37,880 nt of DNA, from IMG/VR virus record IMGVR_UViG_3300028536_000025, positions 1 through 37,880 of that record; one strand, 5' to 3'. The stretch is from a virus. A model generated the notes under the pieces. The model saw only the letters and a program-made list of their open reading frames with translations, was not told where the DNA came from and did not search any database. Positions 4,651 through 31,432 of this stretch are shown here, piece by piece. The translations under genes and the position numbers were made by a program. Each line of letters starts with the position of its first letter. The stretch's first letter is position 1.

Positions 4651-5342
4651 TTACCACCTTCTGGATTAGGTTGTGTCATGAGGCGCCATGCTGCTGCCGC
4701 CACGACTGGAATCTGTCCGTCGCCAGTGGCTTCAAGTCGCTCCATCCGATCGGCCACCCCATCAGGTGCTCGTGAATCGTCGGGGAGATATAACCAAACA
4801 CCACGGTGAAATTCTGGCATGCCGGCCATTTCTGCATTGATGGCGCCAGATAATTCGCTTTCGTCGTCGGCGTATGCACGAAGCCAATATCTTTGCCGCA
4901 GATGGTCACCGCCCAAGTCTTTCGCGCTAAGGGGAATGATTTTGGTTTTGTAACCCATGACGTGGAGGTCCTCCGCTGCGCACTCGATCGCAAGGGACGA
5001 AGGGTTCTCGGCAAATACGTACCTGGGAGCTGCCTCTGCCACGATGCGCCGCATTTCCGGCCATAGATCGTCCGCCGTAGAGCGGCCTCGAGTCGCGGTT
5101 GAATAGGCTTGGCAGGGAAACCCGCCAGATACCACGTCAATACGTCCTCGCCACGCTGTGCCGTCGAAGGTTCTAACGTCATCCCAAATTGGGAAGGCCG
5201 GAAGTGAGCGATCGTTCTGACGGGCGCAGAGGACCGATCGTCGGTACTCGTTGAACTCGACGGCACAGACAGTTCGCCATCCAAGCAAATTGCTTGCGAG
5301 TAATCCGCCACCAGCGCCTGCGAATAGTGCCAGCTCATTCAT
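4647..5342 (-). CDS. DNA (cytosine-5) methyltransferase, short phage form
   Basis: 231 residues. Motifs in order: I, LFAGAGGG (residues 6-13, AdoMet site); IV, GGFPCQAYS with catalytic Cys77; VI, AENPSS (112-114, usually ENV, here ENP); VIII, LRQRYWL (148-154); and a motif X-like GDGQIPVV (207-214). It should transfer a methyl group from AdoMet to C5 of cytosine. The target-recognition region between VIII and X is only about 45-50 residues, much shorter than in typical bacterial enzymes, and no restriction enzyme is nearby. It is therefore an orphan enzyme, probably protecting phage DNA from host nucleases or altering transcription. The ATG at 5342 lies 17 bp after the previous stop. Confidence 0.88.
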   Translation of the reverse strand: MNELALFAGAGGGLLASNLLGWRTVCAVEFNEYRRSVLCARQNDRSLPAFPIWDDVRTFDGTAWRGRIDVVSGGFPCQAYSTATRGRSTADDLWPEMRRIVAEAAPRYVFAENPSSLAIECAAEDLHVMGYKTKIIPLSAKDLGGDHLRQRYWLRAYADDESELSGAINAEMAGMPEFHRGVWLYLPDDSRAPDGVADRMERLEATGDGQIPVVAAAAWRLMTQPNPEGGK

Positions 5343-5359
5343 GAGCCTTTAGCCATTCT

Positions 5360-5872
5360 TCAATCGTGCGCGCGAGCGGCATGGCACTCACTCGAAGAAG
5401 CCATCATCGGCTTGATGTGCTTGTTCAGATAGCCGCGGCACATGCGCATGCGCTCCCTGTCGTAGGTTTGGTACGGATGGCACGCGCCGGCGATATCGAC
5501 GGTCTTGCGCTTCTTTGGAAATTCAAACTCTAGCGCGCCTCCGGGTTCCGCATTTCGCACATCGAGCGGTACGCCTTTGTGGCAATAGAACGCACCGGCT
5601 CCATATGCAAGCGAGAGTTGCAGTTCGTTCCAACGTTCCGGGTCCATGCGTTCGGCCGACTTGCCGCGGAACGCGCAGTTATCGCACGGAAGGTGAAAAG
5701 ACATCATCTCGCCGTCAATCGTGAAATGCTCGCCGACTGGAATACGTTCCCAGAGCTTGAGGCATTTCGTGCAAAAGTCGTACATCTGCGCCAAGCCGGT
5801 GCCGCAAGCGATGCAATGGGATCGGCAGTTCGGGCACCGGATCTGATCAGCGTACTTCGGCGTATAGCTCAA
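5360..5872 (-). CDS. Cys-rich zinc-binding phage protein
   Basis: 170 residues. An N-terminal ribbon (CPNC-x3-C-x2-C, then FCTKC) is followed by a second Cys/His block, PCDNCAFRGKSAER ... WNEL ... FYCHKG, resembling a conserved domain of phage early proteins. The C-terminus is basic with Cys and His. Zinc binding is likely; whether it binds DNA, RNA or protein is unknown. It lies 17 bp upstream of the methyltransferase. Confidence 0.72.
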   Translation of the reverse strand: MSYTPKYADQIRCPNCRSHCIACGTGLAQMYDFCTKCLKLWERIPVGEHFTIDGEMMSFHLPCDNCAFRGKSAERMDPERWNELQLSLAYGAGAFYCHKGVPLDVRNAEPGGALEFEFPKKRKTVDIAGACHPYQTYDRERMRMCRGYLNKHIKPMMASSSECHAARAHD

Positions 5873-5899
5873 GGCTTGGCTCCCTGGTCAGACTGTAAG

Positions 5900-6187
5900 T
5901 TAGTACAGGTTTTCACTGTAAAGCGTCCCCACGCCGCACGATAACTCGCGGCGAATTTGGTCCTGCGATTTCGCGATATCCCATGCCTGCTCACGGTCGT
6001 AAAACGTGCCGTGCTGATCGATGAAGCCTTGCCTGGCACCAGCGAGTCTCTTTTCCCCTTGCATGCTCACGAGCACCAGGCGCATGGTCATGTCGAAATG
6101 GCGCGCACTGGGGATGATCAGACCGTCAACCAGTTGGATGGCGGCGCAGACGATGCGAGGCGGTGACAGTTCACTCACTTTTGACAC
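5900..6187 (-). CDS. Conserved phage early protein
   Basis: 95 residues. RIVCAAIQLVDGLIIPSARHFD followed later by QGFIDQHGTFYDREQAW and a C-terminal TLYSENLY match a recurring small phage protein that I recognise only as conserved hypothetical. It overlaps the coiled-coil gene upstream by 17 bp. Confidence 0.75.
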   Translation of the reverse strand: MSKVSELSPPRIVCAAIQLVDGLIIPSARHFDMTMRLVLVSMQGEKRLAGARQGFIDQHGTFYDREQAWDIAKSQDQIRRELSCGVGTLYSENLY

Positions 6188-7073
6188 CTGACGTTTCCGC
6201 AGAGAACGCGTGGTCGAGCAGCGCTAGATACCGCAGATGCGGCTGCTCTTGCTCGTAGCCGACAAAGCTAGCTCGCGGCATTACATCCCGCAGCGCCGCC
6301 TCTAATTTGCGGATGTGCTCAATTGCTTCGGTAAGCCAGAGGCTATGTACATTGGCGTTCGCGGCATTAGCGATGTCGCGGAGATACATAAGCCGATTAG
6401 TTGTCATTTTGTTTTCCAAAGAAGAACGCCTGCCGATCCTCTCCACCTGCCCGCCTGAGCGCGCAATCGGCGTGGAGGACGGATCAGCAGGACTTAAACT
6501 CGTTTCCAGCGCTGATGCAGATTTGCTACTAACTGATGTCAATTTAGTAGTTGGCGTTTCCGGGGTTGTTAGCGCGGTGTCCACCAGATCGACCACGGCC
6601 GCGTAGGCTCGCGTCCAAATTTCGCGGCTCATACCGTCTGACATGTCACCGTCCCCGATCCAACGCCGGGCCTCCCGCAGTGCCGCCTTGAGAGCATCAC
6701 GCTCGGCCTGCCACTCCCGCCAGCGTTGCTGGAATAGTTCGTTGTCGGCAGTCAGTTCGGCCTCCAGTGCCTTCACGCGCTCATCCGCCACGCCCAGCAC
6801 GCGCAGTAGGTCGGCTTTGTCGGCCCGCATCTCCAGACTCGACCCTTTCGCTTCGCACATGGCTAGGTCAGAGCGAACGCCTGCCAGCTCGGCAGCGGTT
6901 GCCTCAGCCTCCTCAGCGCGAACAGCCTGGTCTGCTACGGCCTGTGTGAGAGCCACGACTTTGGCATCGTAGTCGGAAGCCAACACAATCTCGACGTTGC
7001 GCAGGTCCAGATCGTCAGGAGCGTCTTTACCGACGATTAGCCATCGATTCGAGACCTTGTACCGCTTAATCAT
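6171..7073 (-). CDS. Coiled-coil early protein, possible fusion of two phage genes
   Basis: 300 residues from the ATG at 7073, which lies 8 bases after AGGAGG; an ATG two codons upstream is too close to that site. Residues 1-40 form the KRY-type module (MIKRYKV ... VLASDYDA). Residues 40-135 are a long Ala/Glu/Arg coiled coil. Residues 165-220 are low-complexity Ser/Thr/Pro. Residue 223 is a Met beginning MTTNRLMYLRDIANAANAN, after which comes a separate helical domain that looks like an independent small protein. The frame is continuous, so it is either a true fusion or a gene with an internal start at 6407. Function unknown. Confidence 0.7.
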   Translation of the reverse strand: MIKRYKVSNRWLIVGKDAPDDLDLRNVEIVLASDYDAKVVALTQAVADQAVRAEEAEATAAELAGVRSDLAMCEAKGSSLEMRADKADLLRVLGVADERVKALEAELTADNELFQQRWREWQAERDALKAALREARRWIGDGDMSDGMSREIWTRAYAAVVDLVDTALTTPETPTTKLTSVSSKSASALETSLSPADPSSTPIARSGGQVERIGRRSSLENKMTTNRLMYLRDIANAANANVHSLWLTEAIEHIRKLEAALRDVMPRASFVGYEQEQPHLRYLALLDHAFSAETSGVKSE

Positions 7074-7075
7074 GC

Positions 7076-7189
7076 TCATACCCTCCTCATGCCGCCGCAG
7101 ATTGCACACCGCCAACAGTACGCAATGCCATGATTCCTCACCGGCACCCCGCAGCACTGGCACACGGGCGGGGAGACGAAGATGTTCAT
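7076..7189 (-). CDS. 37-residue zinc-finger micro-protein
   Basis: MNIFVSPPVCQCCG is followed by YCWRCAICGG, giving a C-x-C-C ... C-x2-C-x2-C arrangement typical of tiny zinc-ribbon proteins. The ATG overlaps the previous stop (ATGA at 7186) with GGTGA upstream, and the end carries the AGGAGG site for the next gene. It is short but well supported by coupling and Cys spacing. Confidence 0.6.
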   Translation of the reverse strand: MNIFVSPPVCQCCGVPVRNHGIAYCWRCAICGGMRRV

Positions 7190-7575
7190 GTGGCGTCACC
7201 GTTTTTTTGCGGAGGTGTCACTTTCAGGTGGCCATCCATAATTGCTTTATCGATGGCATCTACCGAGTAGTTCTCGAGGCGAGCTGATGGCTTGCAGCCG
7301 CGCACATCCAGCCCATCCGCGTAAACCTTCGTTGCCGGAGAAGCAATTGTGATCTTCCCATCGGGAGCCATGGCTAGAACGCGGCCATCTGCTTTCTTTT
7401 GGAATAGCGTTCCAACCGGATATGGGCCGAATACGTTGCCCATTCCCAGCGCGAATGTTGTAGCCGCCTGCCATAGAGGCCACATGCGCTCCAAGCAGTC
7501 GTTGCAGGTACAGTTATTTTCGAGCCGGTAGAATGCGACCCTAAAAGCGTTGCCTTCATCGGTTTCAGGAATCAT
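7186..7575 (-). CDS. Hypothetical early protein with a CxCxxC motif
   Basis: 129 residues. CTCNDCLERMWPLW is near the N-terminus, a beta-rich stretch (GRVLAMAPDGKITIAS) lies in the middle and an acidic helix near the end. It overlaps its neighbours by 11 and 4 bp. No family recognised; the Cys cluster may bind zinc. Confidence 0.7.
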   Translation of the reverse strand: MIPETDEGNAFRVAFYRLENNCTCNDCLERMWPLWQAATTFALGMGNVFGPYPVGTLFQKKADGRVLAMAPDGKITIASPATKVYADGLDVRGCKPSARLENYSVDAIDKAIMDGHLKVTPPQKNGDAT

Positions 7576-22324: not shown

Positions 22325-22657
22325 ATGCCATTAGGCCCTCAAATCGTCACGTACGGGAATATCCAAAGTGCCTTCATTCTGGTGGTGACTTTGACGCCCG
22401 CCGCGACCGGTGCAACTACCACGTTGGAGCAGACATTCACCGTTCCTGGTCTGCAGCCCGGTGATGTGGTGAGCGTATCGCCACAATTTGCGATTACCAC
22501 CTTGGTCACTATTGAGAATGCGCGGGTGAGCGCCGCCAATACGCTGGCGCTTGCCTTAAACAATAGCACGGCTGGTTCTCTCACCTTCCCTTCTGGGTCC
22601 TTCGCGATTGAGGTCAACCGGCCGCTTGCCGGCATGATAATGACAGGCATCCAGTGA
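22325..22657 (+). CDS. Small beta-rich capsid-region protein
   Basis: 110 residues, all beta by pattern (QSAFILVVTLTP, TTTLEQTFTVPGLQPGDVVSV, ANTLALALNNST). This resembles single-domain Ig- or jelly-roll-like phage structural proteins found after coat genes. It is a plausible decoration or connector-associated protein; no specific family recognised. Confidence 0.66.
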   Translation: MPLGPQIVTYGNIQSAFILVVTLTPAATGATTTLEQTFTVPGLQPGDVVSVSPQFAITTLVTIENARVSAANTLALALNNSTAGSLTFPSGSFAIEVNRPLAGMIMTGIQ

Positions 22658-23905: not shown

Positions 23906-25978
23906 ATGCCGTCCATTAATCCAGGTCCGGCGAGTGCGGGGAATCCGAATACTCAAATAGCGTTAGCGGCCACCGGCATTTCCAATGCGCCTTATACTTA
24001 TGCCTCTCTACCGGTAGCCTCCAGTATTCAAGTCGGCACGCAGGTCTTCACCACCGATCAAGGGATGGTCTATACCAATGGCGTGAGTTGGATTGTTCTG
24101 GCACCTGCTACGTATAATTCGGTTCCCGCTAAATATAATATTCAAAGACCACCGGCAGTTACCGATAATGCAACGCTCGGATTCACAACGAATTCTGTAT
24201 GGCAATATGCCGGCACCATTTACACGACATCTGCCTACTGTGCAAGTGACTCTGCTGCCTGGACGGCCCTGAATTTAAGTCCCATCGGCACGCCTGCCGA
24301 CGTCATGGGCACGACCCTGACCAAGTTCGCGGGCGGCACCTGCGCGATGCTCAAGGGCTATACGGGCGCGGCGGTTGATGTCGCGATCACGGCGGGCGGC
24401 GTCTATCAAATCTACACCGTCAATATTCTCGCCACGGGCGAGCTCGACAATGTGTCGATGGGCGCTGTCATGGCCACTGCCGATGCCGCCACGAACGCCA
24501 AGGTGCTGAAGGTCTACGATCAGAGCGGCAACAGCAATCATGCGACCTTGGCCAATGCGGCCGGCATTGCGGTCTCTGCGGCGAGTGCCACTGTCACGAC
24601 GGGGACCACGCTCACCATCAATAGCGGCCAGACGGGCACGATTGCCGCGGGGCAGACGGTTTATGGGAGCGGTATCCCGCCGGGGATTACGGTTGCCTCC
24701 GGGGCCGGGCCTTACACGCTATCCGGTGCCGGGGCGCCTGCGAATCCGGCCGCGATTGCCGTTTATTTTGGCATTACCTCTCCACCCTACATCGACTGGG
24801 ACCCGGTGCTCGGCCGCTATGCCATCTACTCGCCCAATGAACAGACCAACGGCGGCACGACCAATAAGCGTGCGCTGCAATTGCCGCAGGCGGCCACGTT
24901 CACGAATGCGAACAATGTGGGCGTCTATGCGGTTGGCGTCGGCACCAACAGCAGCGATATCTCGCAACCCTGTCTCTGTGCGATCGGAGATTCTTCGGTA
25001 GGCTCAGGCTTCTATCAGGCCATTTTCGGCGGCACGGGCGGCGCGCAGAATTTGAATGGCCAGCTCATCGTCACGCAGAACGGCACCGCGCATACGCTTC
25101 CCGTGGCTATTAAGAATCAACCTTGTGTACTCATTGCGAGCAGTGCCGCCACACCGCTCATGACTCTCAATGTGAACGAGGATCAGGGCACCAACAATGC
25201 CGCGATCACGAGTCAAGCGGTCGCGGGTGGCTGGATCTTCTCCTACGGCGGCTCGGCGATTATCCCCTACGGCATGATGAAGTTCGTGGGGCTCGCGATG
25301 TTCAACGCAGCCCCTACGGCAGCACAGTCCCAAGCGATGCGCTACGGGGCCTACTGCCGCTTCAATATCTTCCCGCAGGTGATTAATCAGATCGCGCTGG
25401 TGGGTGATAGCCGACTGGCGAATTTCAACGTGACGCCCGGCTTCGGCGTGAGCAACATTCTGCCGCGCTATGTGGGGCGGAACTGGGATCTCATTAATCT
25501 CTCGACCCATAGTCAGATGGTGCTGACGCAGATCGGCGATGGCCTAGTGCCGACTGTGACAGGTCTCGCCAAGTCGCTGCAGACCTTCAAGAAGCCCGGC
25601 TTGAACTATGCCGTCATCTTGGGCTCTGTCAATGATTTCTCTCAAGTTTCGGCCAGCGTCGCGCAGGCATTCTCTTATTTGCAGACGCTCTGTGCGCAGA
25701 TCGTGGCGGCGGGTTGGGTGCCTATTCTGATTGCGGAACTGACAACGACGTCGGTTACGGGTAATGCCAATACACAATTACCTCTGTTGAATGCTGCGAT
25801 TGTTGCAGCTGGATCCGCCGCTTTCAGTGGTGCGCAGATCGTAAACCTCTACGGCTATGTGCCGGTCGTGACGCCAGGCAATGCCAATTACTATTACACC
25901 GGATTGCATCCGACACCCGCGGTGCATCAGATTATCGCATCTGCCGTCGCCGTCACCATTACGACTCCCTATCCATGA
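23906..25978 (+). CDS. SGNH hydrolase-like virion protein with LamG-like and inserted beta domains
   Basis: 690 residues. Residues 1-20: the MPSINPGPASAGNPNT anchor peptide. About 145-480: a LamG/arabinofuranosidase-like domain with VYDQSGNSNHAT and YIDWDPVLGRY, interrupted at about 222-290 by a small beta-domain containing IPPGITVAS. About 493-690: an SGNH hydrolase with GDS (S502, block I), GSVND (N576, block III) and GLHPT (H668, block V). The Asp three residues before the catalytic His is replaced by Thr665. SGNH domains of phage particles usually deacetylate host surface glycans. Its stop overlaps the connector ATG. Activity may be reduced or depend on another acid. Confidence 0.8.
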   Translation: MPSINPGPASAGNPNTQIALAATGISNAPYTYASLPVASSIQVGTQVFTTDQGMVYTNGVSWIVLAPATYNSVPAKYNIQRPPAVTDNATLGFTTNSVWQYAGTIYTTSAYCASDSAAWTALNLSPIGTPADVMGTTLTKFAGGTCAMLKGYTGAAVDVAITAGGVYQIYTVNILATGELDNVSMGAVMATADAATNAKVLKVYDQSGNSNHATLANAAGIAVSAASATVTTGTTLTINSGQTGTIAAGQTVYGSGIPPGITVASGAGPYTLSGAGAPANPAAIAVYFGITSPPYIDWDPVLGRYAIYSPNEQTNGGTTNKRALQLPQAATFTNANNVGVYAVGVGTNSSDISQPCLCAIGDSSVGSGFYQAIFGGTGGAQNLNGQLIVTQNGTAHTLPVAIKNQPCVLIASSAATPLMTLNVNEDQGTNNAAITSQAVAGGWIFSYGGSAIIPYGMMKFVGLAMFNAAPTAAQSQAMRYGAYCRFNIFPQVINQIALVGDSRLANFNVTPGFGVSNILPRYVGRNWDLINLSTHSQMVLTQIGDGLVPTVTGLAKSLQTFKKPGLNYAVILGSVNDFSQVSASVAQAFSYLQTLCAQIVAAGWVPILIAELTTTSVTGNANTQLPLLNAAIVAAGSAAFSGAQIVNLYGYVPVVTPGNANYYYTGLHPTPAVHQIIASAVAVTITTPYP

Positions 25979-27180
25979 GCGCTGTGACATCCACAGCGAA
26001 TGATCTCATTACGGGCGCCTTGCGCAATATTGGGGCCCAAGAGGCCGGGGAACCGATCAATGCCAATGATGCAGGGGATGCGCTTCAAGTCCTAAATGAC
26101 TTAATCGACAGCCTCTCGACCGATAAACTGTTCATCTATAGCGCGATCGAGAACATCGTCGCCTGGACGCCGGGGAAATACAAATACACCGTGGGTAATC
26201 CGGTCGGCGGTACCTTCTCAGGCTATACCACGACGGGTTCCCCTATCATCACGGGGCTTACAACGGCCCCCACCGTCACTTTTGGCGTCAATGCCAATGG
26301 CGTGACGGTGGGTGGCACCTTAACCGATCTATTGGCGGTGATCCCGGCCGGCGCGACAATCGTCTCCTACAATGCAGGCGTCGTCAGCGGGATGACCTTT
26401 ACCGCGCCCCCGGTCGGCTCTTCGGGAACATTGACCTCAACCTGGGGCGGTGCGACTGGATTATACCTATTCACCTTTAGCGATGGAGAGACGCGCTCGG
26501 GTACGTTGACCAGCGGCTCTGCGGCGATTACCTGGTCCCCTGCCTTGGTTGGCACGCCGACTGCGGCCGGCAATCAAGTCAATACCACGACGCTGACCAT
26601 GTCGTCGAATGCACTAGCGACCTTGACCGCGGCCGATTTGATTACCTATACGACCCCGGGGGATTTTGCGATTGCACGTCCTTTACGGATCCGCCCAGGG
26701 TTCACGCGCATTACTTCAAGCGGCAACAGCGGGCTTGATTATTGGTGGGATGTCACCTCGATTGATGACTACAATGAGGAAGGCTATAAGGGTGTTCCGG
26801 GTCCGTGGCCGTTACTCGTCTCATATCAAACAACGTATCCCTTGGGCACCCTATTCGTCTATCCGAATCCTCAGCAAGCCGGCGAAGTGCATCTATGGAC
26901 GGATGTGGTGCTCACGCAATTCTTAACCCTCACGCAAACCATCAGTTTGCCGCAAGGCTATTCCCGGGCGCTCAAAAAGCTGCTCGCGGTCGAATTGGCG
27001 CCAGAGTATGGCAAGACTCCCGGGATTGAACTCATGCGACAAGTCAAGGAAGCCAGGGATTTCATTAAGGCCATGAATGAGACACCGGTGAAGAAACTTC
27101 GCTACGATCGCGCTTTAGTTAGGGCGAATGGGAAAGACGCCGGATTTATTATGCACGGCGGCTTCGGCAGTAATTATTGA
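25975..27180 (+). CDS. gp4-like tail accessory/connector protein with inserted beta-domains
   Basis: 401 residues, whereas P22 gp4 is about 166. Residues 1-75 and 227-385 match the connector family: LITGALRNIGAQEAGEPINAN, DALQVLNDLIDSLSTDKL, KYKYTVGNP at 70, then GDFAIARPLRI, a Trp-rich middle and a C-terminal helix (LKKLLAVELAPEYG). Between YTVGNPVG and TTPGDFAIA about 150 residues of beta-rich sequence are inserted, including IPAGATIVS at 123-131. It binds the portal after packaging and closes the head. The insertion may point outward from the neck. Confidence 0.8.
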   Translation: MSAVTSTANDLITGALRNIGAQEAGEPINANDAGDALQVLNDLIDSLSTDKLFIYSAIENIVAWTPGKYKYTVGNPVGGTFSGYTTTGSPIITGLTTAPTVTFGVNANGVTVGGTLTDLLAVIPAGATIVSYNAGVVSGMTFTAPPVGSSGTLTSTWGGATGLYLFTFSDGETRSGTLTSGSAAITWSPALVGTPTAAGNQVNTTTLTMSSNALATLTAADLITYTTPGDFAIARPLRIRPGFTRITSSGNSGLDYWWDVTSIDDYNEEGYKGVPGPWPLLVSYQTTYPLGTLFVYPNPQQAGEVHLWTDVVLTQFLTLTQTISLPQGYSRALKKLLAVELAPEYGKTPGIELMRQVKEARDFIKAMNETPVKKLRYDRALVRANGKDAGFIMHGGFGSNY

Positions 27181-28937
27181 TGCCACAGATCGCCGCCGAT
27201 CCTGGCATTTGCGGACCGAGCTATCAGGCGCCAATGCTCTTGCAGGACGCTGAAAACGCCATCAATTGGTATGTGGAAATAGCCGAGATCGATGGCGCAA
27301 AAGAGCCGGTCGCGCTCTTAGGGTCGCCTGGTCTGCAATCGGTATTCTTCACTCAGATAGGTCCCGTGCGCGGCGCTTGGGTGCTACCCGGCGGCACTCA
27401 GGCACTCTTTGTGACCGGCCAGACGCTCTATGTCGCAACCATGACGGTGCCGGCGACACAAAACGCCATCGCGCAATTCGCAATTACCTCACCCGGTACT
27501 CTATTGACCAATTCTGGCCCTGTCGTGATGCGCGATAATGGGGTGGTAAGCCAAGGCAAAGGTGGCTACGTTTTTATTGTGGACGGTCTTTATTGGTACT
27601 TCTATCGGATTGCAGGCGCCGGAACTGCCACCTTTACAGGGGGGCTCACGCCCGGCTCGCCGACGATCACCTTGCCTGGAGTTTTGCCCGCCGGACTCAT
27701 CATCAGTCCCAATCCGAGTAGTTTTTTAACCGATACAGGCGCACTCATTCCTTTTGGCACGACGATTGCGAGCATTAACTACGCAGCGCCTTCAATTACG
27801 ATGACTGCGGCGGCGATTGGCACCAATGCTTCTGCCACTATCACCTTGAATGTGGCAGCTTTTGGCCAGATCACCGATCCTGGGGTGGTGCCGGCTGATC
27901 GATTGGCATTCATCGAGGGATGGATCATTGCCAATCAGACCGGCACACGAACTTTCATTACGAATGGGCCCACGCCATATACCAATACCTTTCCTGGTAG
28001 TTTTTTTGCGCTAAAGGATTCATCGACCGACAACCTCATCACGATTTTCGAGAATGATCGCGAGCTGTGGCTAATAGGGGAGCGCACCAGTGAGGTCTGG
28101 TTTAGTGCAGGAGGAGCTAATTTTAACTTTGCTCGAGTGCCTGGCGTGGGTCCGCAGATTGGTTGTTCTGCCGTGCATTCAATCACTCGCATGGGCCAAT
28201 CCTTGGTCTGGCTTGAAAAGAATGAGCAAGGCGAGAATATAGTGATTGCAACCAACCAATATAGTTGGGAACGTATATCTACGCATGCAATTGAACATGC
28301 GATTGCTTCTTACCCTCTAGTGTCCGATGCGATTGGCTATGCATACGAGGAAGAAGGGCATATGTTCTATGTGCTCACCTTCCCAACGGCCGATCAAACT
28401 TGGGTATTCGATGGCACGGCGTCCAAAAATCTAGGCAAGATGTGCTGGCATCAGCGCTTGAGTTACGATCCTGTTGCGGGCGTTTATCATCGGCACCCTG
28501 GCAATTGCTATGTAGATTTTCAGAACTTGCGATTGATTGGGGATTATCAAAACGGCTTTGTCAGCCGAATGTCGCGCAGCATCTATACCGAGAACGGGAA
28601 TCCATTGCGTGCCCAGCGGCGCTCAAAACATGTGTGGGCCGCAAAAACACGAAATCGTGTCTTTCAGTCGAGCTTGCAGATCGAATTTACCCCTGGGGTT
28701 GGCCTTCAGTTTGGACAAGGGCAGAACCCTCAAGCGATGGTCCGTTGGTCAAATGATGGAGGATTTACCTGGTCCAATGAAAATTGGCGTACTATAGGGG
28801 CAGCAGGCGCGACGAAGAACCGCATGAAGATCAATCGATTGGGCAGAGCCCGCGATCGGGTCTATGAGGTGAATTTCTCCGATCCCACGCCACGCGACAT
28901 CATAGGAGCCACCCTATTCGGCGAAACCGAGGACTAG
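27180..28937 (+). CDS. gp10-like packaged-DNA stabilisation (hub) protein with inserted beta-domain
   Basis: 585 residues from the ATG at 27180 (TGATG overlap); a TTG three bases upstream is an alternative. Family landmarks: ENAINWYVEIAE near the start, DGLYWYFYRI, FENDRELWLIGERTSEVWF, and GPQIGCSAVHSI; P22 gp10 has about 470 residues. A beta insertion at about 148-226 carries IPFGTTIAS. It assembles on the gp4-like ring and carries the tail needle and spikes. The insertion site lies after DGLYWYFYRI, inside what should be the N-terminal beta-propeller part. Confidence 0.82.
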   Translation: MPQIAADPGICGPSYQAPMLLQDAENAINWYVEIAEIDGAKEPVALLGSPGLQSVFFTQIGPVRGAWVLPGGTQALFVTGQTLYVATMTVPATQNAIAQFAITSPGTLLTNSGPVVMRDNGVVSQGKGGYVFIVDGLYWYFYRIAGAGTATFTGGLTPGSPTITLPGVLPAGLIISPNPSSFLTDTGALIPFGTTIASINYAAPSITMTAAAIGTNASATITLNVAAFGQITDPGVVPADRLAFIEGWIIANQTGTRTFITNGPTPYTNTFPGSFFALKDSSTDNLITIFENDRELWLIGERTSEVWFSAGGANFNFARVPGVGPQIGCSAVHSITRMGQSLVWLEKNEQGENIVIATNQYSWERISTHAIEHAIASYPLVSDAIGYAYEEEGHMFYVLTFPTADQTWVFDGTASKNLGKMCWHQRLSYDPVAGVYHRHPGNCYVDFQNLRLIGDYQNGFVSRMSRSIYTENGNPLRAQRRSKHVWAAKTRNRVFQSSLQIEFTPGVGLQFGQGQNPQAMVRWSNDGGFTWSNENWRTIGAAGATKNRMKINRLGRARDRVYEVNFSDPTPRDIIGATLFGETED

Positions 28938-29606: not shown

Positions 29607-30137
29607 ATGGTGCGCCAAGGCTATGCGGATACCTTCGGGTTGCTGATGGAATTGGCGAATCCTGCGCTGTGGGATACGTTGCCGATGCGTACTCAAGGGG
29701 GATCGCCGCACCGCGAACTCTCCGACATTTGGGTGCGCTACAACCCGATTGAGCGATTCGATGGGGATATTGAGAAATTCAATGCCCAGCATGTCGCTGA
29801 ATGGTATCCGGTGGTGCGCGCGATCCCGACTGCAAAAGCATTGAGCGAGCGCATTGCGGAGGATTTCGACAGTGAGCTAGGGGGGGTGCTCGTGACCAAA
29901 ATACCAGCCGGCAAGACCTGTTATCCGCATGTCGATCATGGCTGGCACGCGCACCATTATGAGAAGCTGGCTCTCCAGGTCAAAGGCCACCCAGCTCAGC
30001 GATTCCATGTTGAAGATGATGAATTGACTACCGTCGATGGTGATTTATTCACATTCGATAATTCCAAAGTGCATTGGGTCACGAATGAAAGCTCAGAAGA
30101 TCGTATTACGATGATCGTTTGTGTGAGGCATCACTAA
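29607..30137 (+). CDS. 2-oxoglutarate/Fe(II) oxygenase, Asp/Asn beta-hydroxylase-like
   Basis: 176 residues from ATG 29607, one base after the cupin stop. CYPHVDHGWHAHHYEKLALQV holds the HxD pair (H108, D110), GDLFTFDNSKVHWVTN supplies the distal His156, and SEDRITMIV the Arg166 that binds the 2OG carboxylate. This matches aspartyl/asparaginyl beta-hydroxylases (PF05118 type). Those enzymes hydroxylate Asp/Asn side chains of proteins. A virion or host substrate cannot be named. An alternative upstream start would overlap the cupin gene. Confidence 0.75.
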   Translation: MVRQGYADTFGLLMELANPALWDTLPMRTQGGSPHRELSDIWVRYNPIERFDGDIEKFNAQHVAEWYPVVRAIPTAKALSERIAEDFDSELGGVLVTKIPAGKTCYPHVDHGWHAHHYEKLALQVKGHPAQRFHVEDDELTTVDGDLFTFDNSKVHWVTNESSEDRITMIVCVRHH

Positions 30138-31432
30138 TGCCATGGGGCTTCGCAGCGGCGGCCGTAGGAACCATCGCAGGGTCTGTGATTAGTTCGAATG
30201 GCGCACAGTCGGCTGCCGATACGCAGGCACAATCGGCCGCGAATGCGCAGGCTATCTCGCAGCAGCAATATCAGAACACGGTAGCGCAAGAGCAGCCATA
30301 TTTGCAATCGGGCTATGGGGCGCAATCGCAGCTCAATTATCTGATGGGCATCGGAGTTCCGGGGCAAGTCGGATCAAATCAAGGCCAAGGACTGACAAAT
30401 CAAAGTGGTGGTCAGCCTGGTTATGACCCATCGAGCGGTTATACCATCGGTGCGAATGGCACGATTGGACGTCTAATCCCTGGTGGGGGACTCCAACAGG
30501 GAAGCGCCCCAATACAGCAGGGCGCACAATCTCCTCTATCTGCGGCATTATCCTCGCCGGGCTTGCGCAATTCTACCAATTATATTGGTCCACATTCAGG
30601 AATGACCCCTGGTGGAATGGCCAATACACAACCGATTGCCAGCGTCACTCAAGGCCAGTCAGGATCCTCGCCAAGCAATTCTCAGGGAATAAGTAATTTT
30701 CCATCGACCGCCATTTCTAGTCCAGCGGGGGGTTATGGATCACTGCTTTCGCCATTCACGGCCGATACGTTCAAGCAATACTCACCCGCCTATCAATTCC
30801 AATTGCAGCAGGGCCAACAAGGCGTATTGAATGCGGATAGCTCAGGCCAAGGCGCACTCTCCGGAGCCGCGCAGAAAGACTTGATAAATTATAACCAGGG
30901 GCTGGCCAATACCTCATTCAATAATGCCTTTAATCAATATCAGACACAGCAGGGCAATATCTATAGTCGTCTCTCAGGCATTGCTAATCAGGGTCAGAAC
31001 GCGGCGAGCAATACCGGGGCGCAAGGCACGGCACTCGCGGGACAGGCCGCGCAGTCGGCGACCAATGTGGGCTCTGCTCTGGCGGCAGGACAAGTGGGCG
31101 CCGCTAATGCCTGGAGTGGGGCGGCCAGCAGTTTGGGTGGTCTATATGCAGCATATGGCGGTGGGGGGTCACAAGCGCCAGCATTAACATCGAGCCAGTA
31201 TAGTGGCGGCTATGGAGCCACCGGTGGCACCGATTTCATTTCCTCGGACCGCCGCTTAAAGAAGAATATCCGCCGTATCGGCAGTACCGAAGGTGGTCAG
31301 CCTTGGTATGAATTTGAGTACATCGATAAACCTGGATTGCATACGGGCGTCATGGCCGATGAGTCGCCTCCTTCTGCGGTGACTTATGACGCTGATGGTT
31401 ATGCGATGGTCGATTACTCGAGGATCCGCTAG
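30137..31432 (+). CDS. Probable internal/ejection protein with short S74-like C-terminus
   Basis: 431 residues; the ATG overlaps the oxygenase stop (TAATG). The N-terminus is Ala/Gly-rich and hydrophobic (WGFAAAAVGTIAGSVI), followed by a Gln/Ala/Ser-rich helical body, as in podovirus DNA-ejection proteins. The C-terminal 62 residues begin SDRRLKKNIRRIG and contain WYEFEYID and GVMADE, the start and core of peptidase-S74-type intramolecular chaperone domains (auto-cleavage at the Ser of SDRRLK), but much shorter than a full S74 domain. Ejection role by position; cleavage is a possibility only. Confidence 0.7.
   Translation: MPWGFAAAAVGTIAGSVISSNGAQSAADTQAQSAANAQAISQQQYQNTVAQEQPYLQSGYGAQSQLNYLMGIGVPGQVGSNQGQGLTNQSGGQPGYDPSSGYTIGANGTIGRLIPGGGLQQGSAPIQQGAQSPLSAALSSPGLRNSTNYIGPHSGMTPGGMANTQPIASVTQGQSGSSPSNSQGISNFPSTAISSPAGGYGSLLSPFTADTFKQYSPAYQFQLQQGQQGVLNADSSGQGALSGAAQKDLINYNQGLANTSFNNAFNQYQTQQGNIYSRLSGIANQGQNAASNTGAQGTALAGQAAQSATNVGSALAAGQVGAANAWSGAASSLGGLYAAYGGGGSQAPALTSSQYSGGYGATGGTDFISSDRRLKKNIRRIGSTEGGQPWYEFEYIDKPGLHTGVMADESPPSAVTYDADGYAMVDYSRIR

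Follow-up and report, generated by a model that had tools for sequence, protein, structure and literature searches.

A small beta-rich domain inserted in three consecutive virion genes of a P22-like podovirus

Small beta domains borne by the virion proteins of phages are known from several systems. Immunoglobulin (Ig)-like domains, reportedly described on phage virion proteins by Fraser et al. in 2006, are scattered over unrelated virion proteins. Promiscuous beta domains of virions have thus far been described as Ig-like and other shuffled domains (PMC10684548) and as carbohydrate-binding modules (PMC6669499); in the 936 phages, which are Gram-positive siphophages, accessory modules occur on neck and tail, and those borne by the neck have been shown to bind host cells (PMC6669499). 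Another comparable protein is the decoration protein of Arthrobacter phage Bridgette (PDB 8eci), a stand-alone capsid protein that is dimeric (PMC13033339). The stretch analyzed here is the whole IMG/VR viral record IMGVR_UViG_3300028536_000025 (37,880 bases; hereafter referred to as the window), belonging to a P22-like podovirus with a coat protein (PF11651), a gp4-like connector, and a gp10-like hub. Three consecutive genes, coding for an SGNH hydrolase-like protein, the connector, and the hub, each contain an additional beta-rich stretch whose core is IPxGxT, referred to as M1. M1 resembles the Ig-like domains in being a small beta domain found on unrelated virion proteins, but its inserts lie in internal loops, whereas Ig-like domains are mostly terminal additions. 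Like the 936 modules, M1 and a second domain (M2, see below) are accessory modules, but they belong to other families, and it is for the 936 modules that binding to host cells was tested.

The motif I[PTQ]xGxT[IV] is present in exactly these three open reading frames (ORFs) of the window and in no other. The first copy (24569..24778, plus strand, as for all the features reported here) is located in the LamG-like part of the SGNH protein (residues ~222-291; profile match 226-287) and belongs to a GTIAxGQT subtype. In the connector, M1 is located in the loop after YTVG and is divided into a first half (26209..26367, residues 79-131, ending with IPAGATIVS), aligned with the connectors of L002, L004, and the cultured Xanthomonas phage PBR31, and a second half (26581..26652, residues 203-226, NTTTLTMSSNALATLTAADLITYT), which aligns with the end of the uninterrupted M1 of the same connectors. 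The third copy (27624..27854, residues 150-226) occupies the hub hairpin before QITDPG. A sequence-only reading of the window had proposed that these genes share the same beta-rich insert, and this was borne out by an external profile, pairwise shuffles, and lineage profiles. In order to avoid circularity, neither the window nor its relatives contributed to the external M1 profile. Viral as well as bacterial contigs were scanned with a DNA pattern for GIPAGTTI, and the profile was iterated on those sequences only; it comprises 469 copies from 190 ORFs and 70 columns (consensus TFTGTTTSGSTTVTLVASTTGLAVGMTVTGTGIPAGTTITSITSGTTITLSAAATATGTGTTLTF). It matches the hub at residues 152-225 (independent E-value, iE, 4.9e-7) and the SGNH protein at residues 226-287 (iE 1.3e-4), while no shuffled window protein exceeds 10 bits. 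The orthologous connector inserts are matched as well (PBR31, 2.7e-13; L004, 1.7e-10; L002, 4.1e-7), and the window connector copy is called M1 by orthology, since its own profile match is not significant and those of its orthologs are. The pairwise score of the connector and hub inserts is 88, a value reached by none of 2000 shuffles (mean 47 +/- 7.8), and the lineage profiles of connector inserts and hub inserts align with 97% probability. In direct pairwise alignment with either of them, the SGNH insert remains at background level; it is, however, matched at iE 6e-8 by a subtype profile of hub/connector repeats from another lineage. Its subtype differs from that of the connector and hub copies; compared alone, pairwise and by profile, subtypes A and B reach only 5% in hhalign, and they are linked via intermediates from the pattern scan. 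When the hub and SGNH inserts were compared with phages by tblastn, no match was obtained, probably because they were masked as low complexity. The GC content of the inserts exceeds that of their flanks (65% vs. 56-57% in the SGNH gene, 61-62% vs. 52-53% in the connector), which Gly/Ala/Thr content alone could explain and which was not used as evidence. On these profile comparisons, M1 is confirmed as one homologous module present in three adjacent genes.

Each insert interrupts a recognizable host family. The hub (27177..28937; 586 residues, TTG start), a gp10-like head closure protein (Hc3), matches phrog_578 over residues 24-579 (E 6.7e-86), its affiliation to Hc3 relying on the regions outside the insert. 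The connector (25975..27180; 401 residues), a gp4-like head-to-tail connector of the adaptor Ad3 family, matches phrog_12985 (E 1.7e-33) and phrog_637 (E 3.1e-4), with conserved N-terminal helical and C-terminal parts, and the profile of its insert-free family matches P22 gp4 (E 3.4e-7). The SGNH/GDSL hydrolase-like protein (ORF at 23906..25978; 690 residues, with an N-terminal LamG-like region) matches PF13472 at E 3.9e-7 and 31.2 bits, just below the Pfam cut-off of 32.9. A search for its relatives in viral contigs found none; its full-length homolog, BCZ75921 of Acetobacter phage phiAX1 (594 residues), has the same layout without the insert, its LamG-like part going from YDQSG nearly straight to PKIGVVTVNGFPAISF. 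The hub insert is absent from the hubs of PBR31, P26218, VvAW1, DSL-LC05, and MW202674. Insert-free connectors of the family of the window are 232-254 residues long and insert-free hubs mostly 457-491, the solved gp10-like hubs of Pam1 and 9vyg having 442-446. The host family therefore runs on both sides of each insert in the alignments with insert-free homologs, as the sequence-only reading had stated; and since such homologs exist for all three genes, the idea that these segments are insertions, acquired rather than ancestral, is supported. The same reading had judged the connector and the hub longer than P22 gp4 and gp10, which belong to the same families and carry neither M1 nor M2. Both are indeed longer than their insert-free relatives, but gp4 (166 residues) is the wrong yardstick, since its match to the connector family is confined to the two helical ends, N- and C-terminal, and the middle part of the longer connectors is missing from it as well.

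The 85 residues (76-160) first assigned to the connector insert are an underestimate. The insert spans about 150 residues (~79-229), M1 being split by a second domain, M2 (the "SDGE" domain; 26389..26568, residues 139-198, iE 3.5e-20). By comparison with L002, L004, and PBR31, the connector M1 is broken after IPAGATIVS by about 70 residues with an FSDGE core and picks up at TTLTMSSNALATL. The M2 profile was built from five non-connector loci, and its match at residues 139-198 assigns this segment to the M2 family; the DNA pattern for the FSDGE core was also found in other virion-like ORFs. M2 is absent in L002, L004-L007, and PBR31, and M1 is uninterrupted in the connectors of L002, L005, and PBR31, while the nested layout is shared by four further connectors (L299, L301, L303, and L304). 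Among the close relatives, the window, L003, and L303 possess M2, and L002 and L005 do not. On the connector tree, the distribution of M2 requires that it was gained or lost several times at a single site. Two ORFs of 673 residues (L298, 3302-5320; L306, 1328-3346) contain two tandem M2 copies, that of L298 having no Pfam match.

As to the fold, the AlphaFold model of the hub module, based on 78 module sequences, reached a predicted local distance difference test (pLDDT) value of 85.6 and consists of six strands, the first and the last being long. The best match of a sequence profile search of the PDB was the Bridgette decoration protein (8eci chain 1, E 9.3e-8), which also possesses the GIPAGTTI core, and the same chain was the top structural match (VIA; Z 8.8, 84 residues aligned). 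The two are therefore alike in sequence and fold, although only about 60-84 residues align, and M1 is internal to three larger proteins rather than stand-alone. Weaker matches are small beta barrels, i.e., ribosomal L3, the F1-ATPase N-terminal barrel, and Uba1 (Z 5.5-7.4), which we take to be RIFT-related; being below Z 8, they are suggestive at most, without a sequence link, and may reflect only a common arrangement. RIFT-related barrels are reused in tail and neck proteins (PMC10684548). Foldseek against the PDB alone returned nothing below E 0.001. The top fold matches are six-stranded barrels, and Pfam gave neither Ig nor BIG matches (with ten module sequences, no Ig family reached E <= 1); the Ig sandwich is not among the listed fold matches, which does not exclude such a fold. 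No model for M1 or M2 was found in Pfam, and none for the three window proteins in NCBIfam. Predicted viral structures matching M1 include tail collar proteins and, weakly, a head-to-tail adaptor (E 0.02) and a P22 gp10 homolog (E 0.08). ORFs bearing M1 match tail fibre, collar, tail tip J, sheath, nozzle, cement, and minor capsid families; this variety, together with the 0 to ~4 copies at the same hub loop (see below), agrees with the mobility that had been proposed for the module. Very long ORFs of bacterial genomes (L188, L190, L211, L240, and L220), many from Verrucomicrobia and Opitutae records, harbor 9-12 M1 copies each.

The history of the module was reconstructed on the connector tree and on a tree of insert-free columns; these alone were relied on, since in a 25-taxon tree the hub row of L304 was the wrong gene (an SGNH-like frame). 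On the insert-free columns, PBR31 and the window clade form one group and L052/L053 and the L009 clade another, each at 100/100. The connectors of all these groups carry M1, whereas hub M1 is present in the window and L009 clades and absent in PBR31, L052, and L053. The same hub loop contains no copy in PBR31, L052, L053, and the outgroups, one in the window clade, two in L009, and about four in L014 and L016. The hubs of the last two (4691-7000 and 5152-7461, respectively; 769 residues, with ~4 tandem M1 in one hairpin) are the largest enlargement seen. Since both outgroups have connector M1 but no hub M1, it is likely that M1 entered the connector first and the hub later, twice, in the same hairpin. 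The proposed spread through neck genes finds support in the L009 lineage, where the hub copies are nearest to the connector copies of the same lineage (~175-205, against medians of 59-69 versus all of more than 400 modules), suggesting that the module spread inside the genome. In the lineage of the window the signal is weak: the L005 hub copy has its top match in the connector copy of L005 itself, but by 129 to 125 only, and the window hub copy has a margin of 109 to 108 only. The proposal does not extend to the SGNH copy, which scores 45 and 37 with the connector and hub copies (background median 65) and was probably acquired separately. Among the viral loci with M1, the fetched stretch contains two ORFs with the module in 7/103 and three in 0/103, which makes three adjacent carriers unusual.

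On the whole, we consider it probable (roughly two chances in three) that M1 is an autonomous small beta domain, a decoration module placed in those hairpin loops of virion proteins that face outward. Phages would splice the six-stranded M1 into such loops; in the window connector, the promiscuous M2 has landed inside M1. The loops should face open space, since one hairpin tolerates up to ~290 extra residues, and the inserts would be exposed at the surface. The solved gp4 and gp10 homologs have 12 and 6 chains; with 12 connectors and 6 hubs, as in P22, the neck would display 12 M1+M2 and 6 M1. The most likely use would be a weak multivalent contact with the host envelope or its polysaccharide, or, alternatively, particle stabilization; a role in host adhesion is plausible by analogy with the described modules. 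Several points weigh against this interpretation: the model of the whole connector is not usable (pLDDT 44); the 8eci match has a root-mean-square deviation of 6.2 and all other structural matches are below Z 8; with the external profile the window connector copy on its own gives iE 1.9; the different subtype of the SGNH copy speaks against a single spread event; and two hub gains (two steps) versus one gain and two losses (three steps) is not decisive.

Among the other explanations, the one that survives best, though unlikely, is that the inserts are tolerated filler, that is, self-folding recombination hitch-hikers surviving in harmless loops with no function of their own. The coming and going of M2 among close relatives, the varying copy number (0 to ~4), and the fast divergence of the module sequences within a conserved host protein would agree with it, but the fold core GxxVxGxGIPAGTTI is retained across great divergence, M1 is kept in the connectors of two separate lineages, and the module is used repeatedly in fibres, collars, and decoration proteins. 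It is still less likely that the inserts widen the neck surface so that tailspikes, the SGNH protein, or further accessory proteins can be held there. The gp4/gp10 region is the site of the tailspikes in P22, the SGNH gene adjoins the neck genes and carries M1, and the Bridgette protein forms dimers; however, the SGNH copy is no more like the neck copies than background, and L003-L007 keep neck M1 with no SGNH homolog found in the fetched stretches. A related and improbable idea, suggested by the same dimeric relative, is that M1 copies on the connector, hub, and SGNH protein pair with one another, recruiting to the neck the enzyme of the neighboring gene; if so, one domain spreading through adjacent genes would build a new virion part. 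Ancestrally long proteins that lost the segments in relatives are more improbable still: M1 in all the connector relatives of two lineages would allow a single gain followed by losses inside that clade, but insert-free connectors and hubs form a separate clade (P26218, VvAW1, DSL-LC05, PAE2, and others), and the solved gp10-like hubs have only 442-446 residues. Convergence of low-complexity Thr/Ser/Gly beta sequence is the least credible, the biased composition and the background SGNH-to-neck scores being outweighed by profile matches far above shuffled controls, by the 97% alignment of the lineage profiles, and by a confident six-stranded model.

Some features of the genes surrounding the inserts can be added. 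At the SGNH C-terminus (25892-25927, YYTGLHPTPAVH), the block V acid position, three residues before the His, is occupied by Thr, where the phiAX1 homolog has DSIH; the window enzyme may be weakened or may use another acid. An ORF of 110 residues (22325-22657) resembles M1 marginally (E 0.3) and weakly matches a lipase-family C-terminal region (phrog_6102, E 0.003); similar small ORFs stand ahead of the connector in L003-L007. Downstream, the DNA-ejection-like protein (phrog_598) encoded at 30119-31432 has a chaperone-like Peptidase_S74 segment at its end (PF13884, E 1.2e-4), and a similarly annotated gene lies downstream of the PAE2 hub. The connector-hub junction looks like a hot spot of gene gain, since accessory genes (SGNH-like, endonuclease, and others) are found there in several relatives (L304, 8290-9090; L002, 2597-5998; L291, 2070-2558; L293, 1845-3884).

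Returning to M1 as a probable decoration module, what appears to be new is the M1 family itself, as far as the searched libraries show, the fact that it has landed repeatedly in the hairpins of connectors and hubs, and the presence of one promiscuous domain inside another; no paper describing this was found in an open-access library, the only one searched. Since no Pfam or NCBIfam entry exists, as far as tested, annotation misses M1 and M2 in tail fibres, collars, sheaths, cement proteins, and bacterial genomes. The core neck proteins must seal the DNA channel and yet tolerate repeated insertion, even nested, at the same hairpins; the inserts thus mark natural display sites on the podovirus neck and offer a traceable case of domains moving within and between phage genes.

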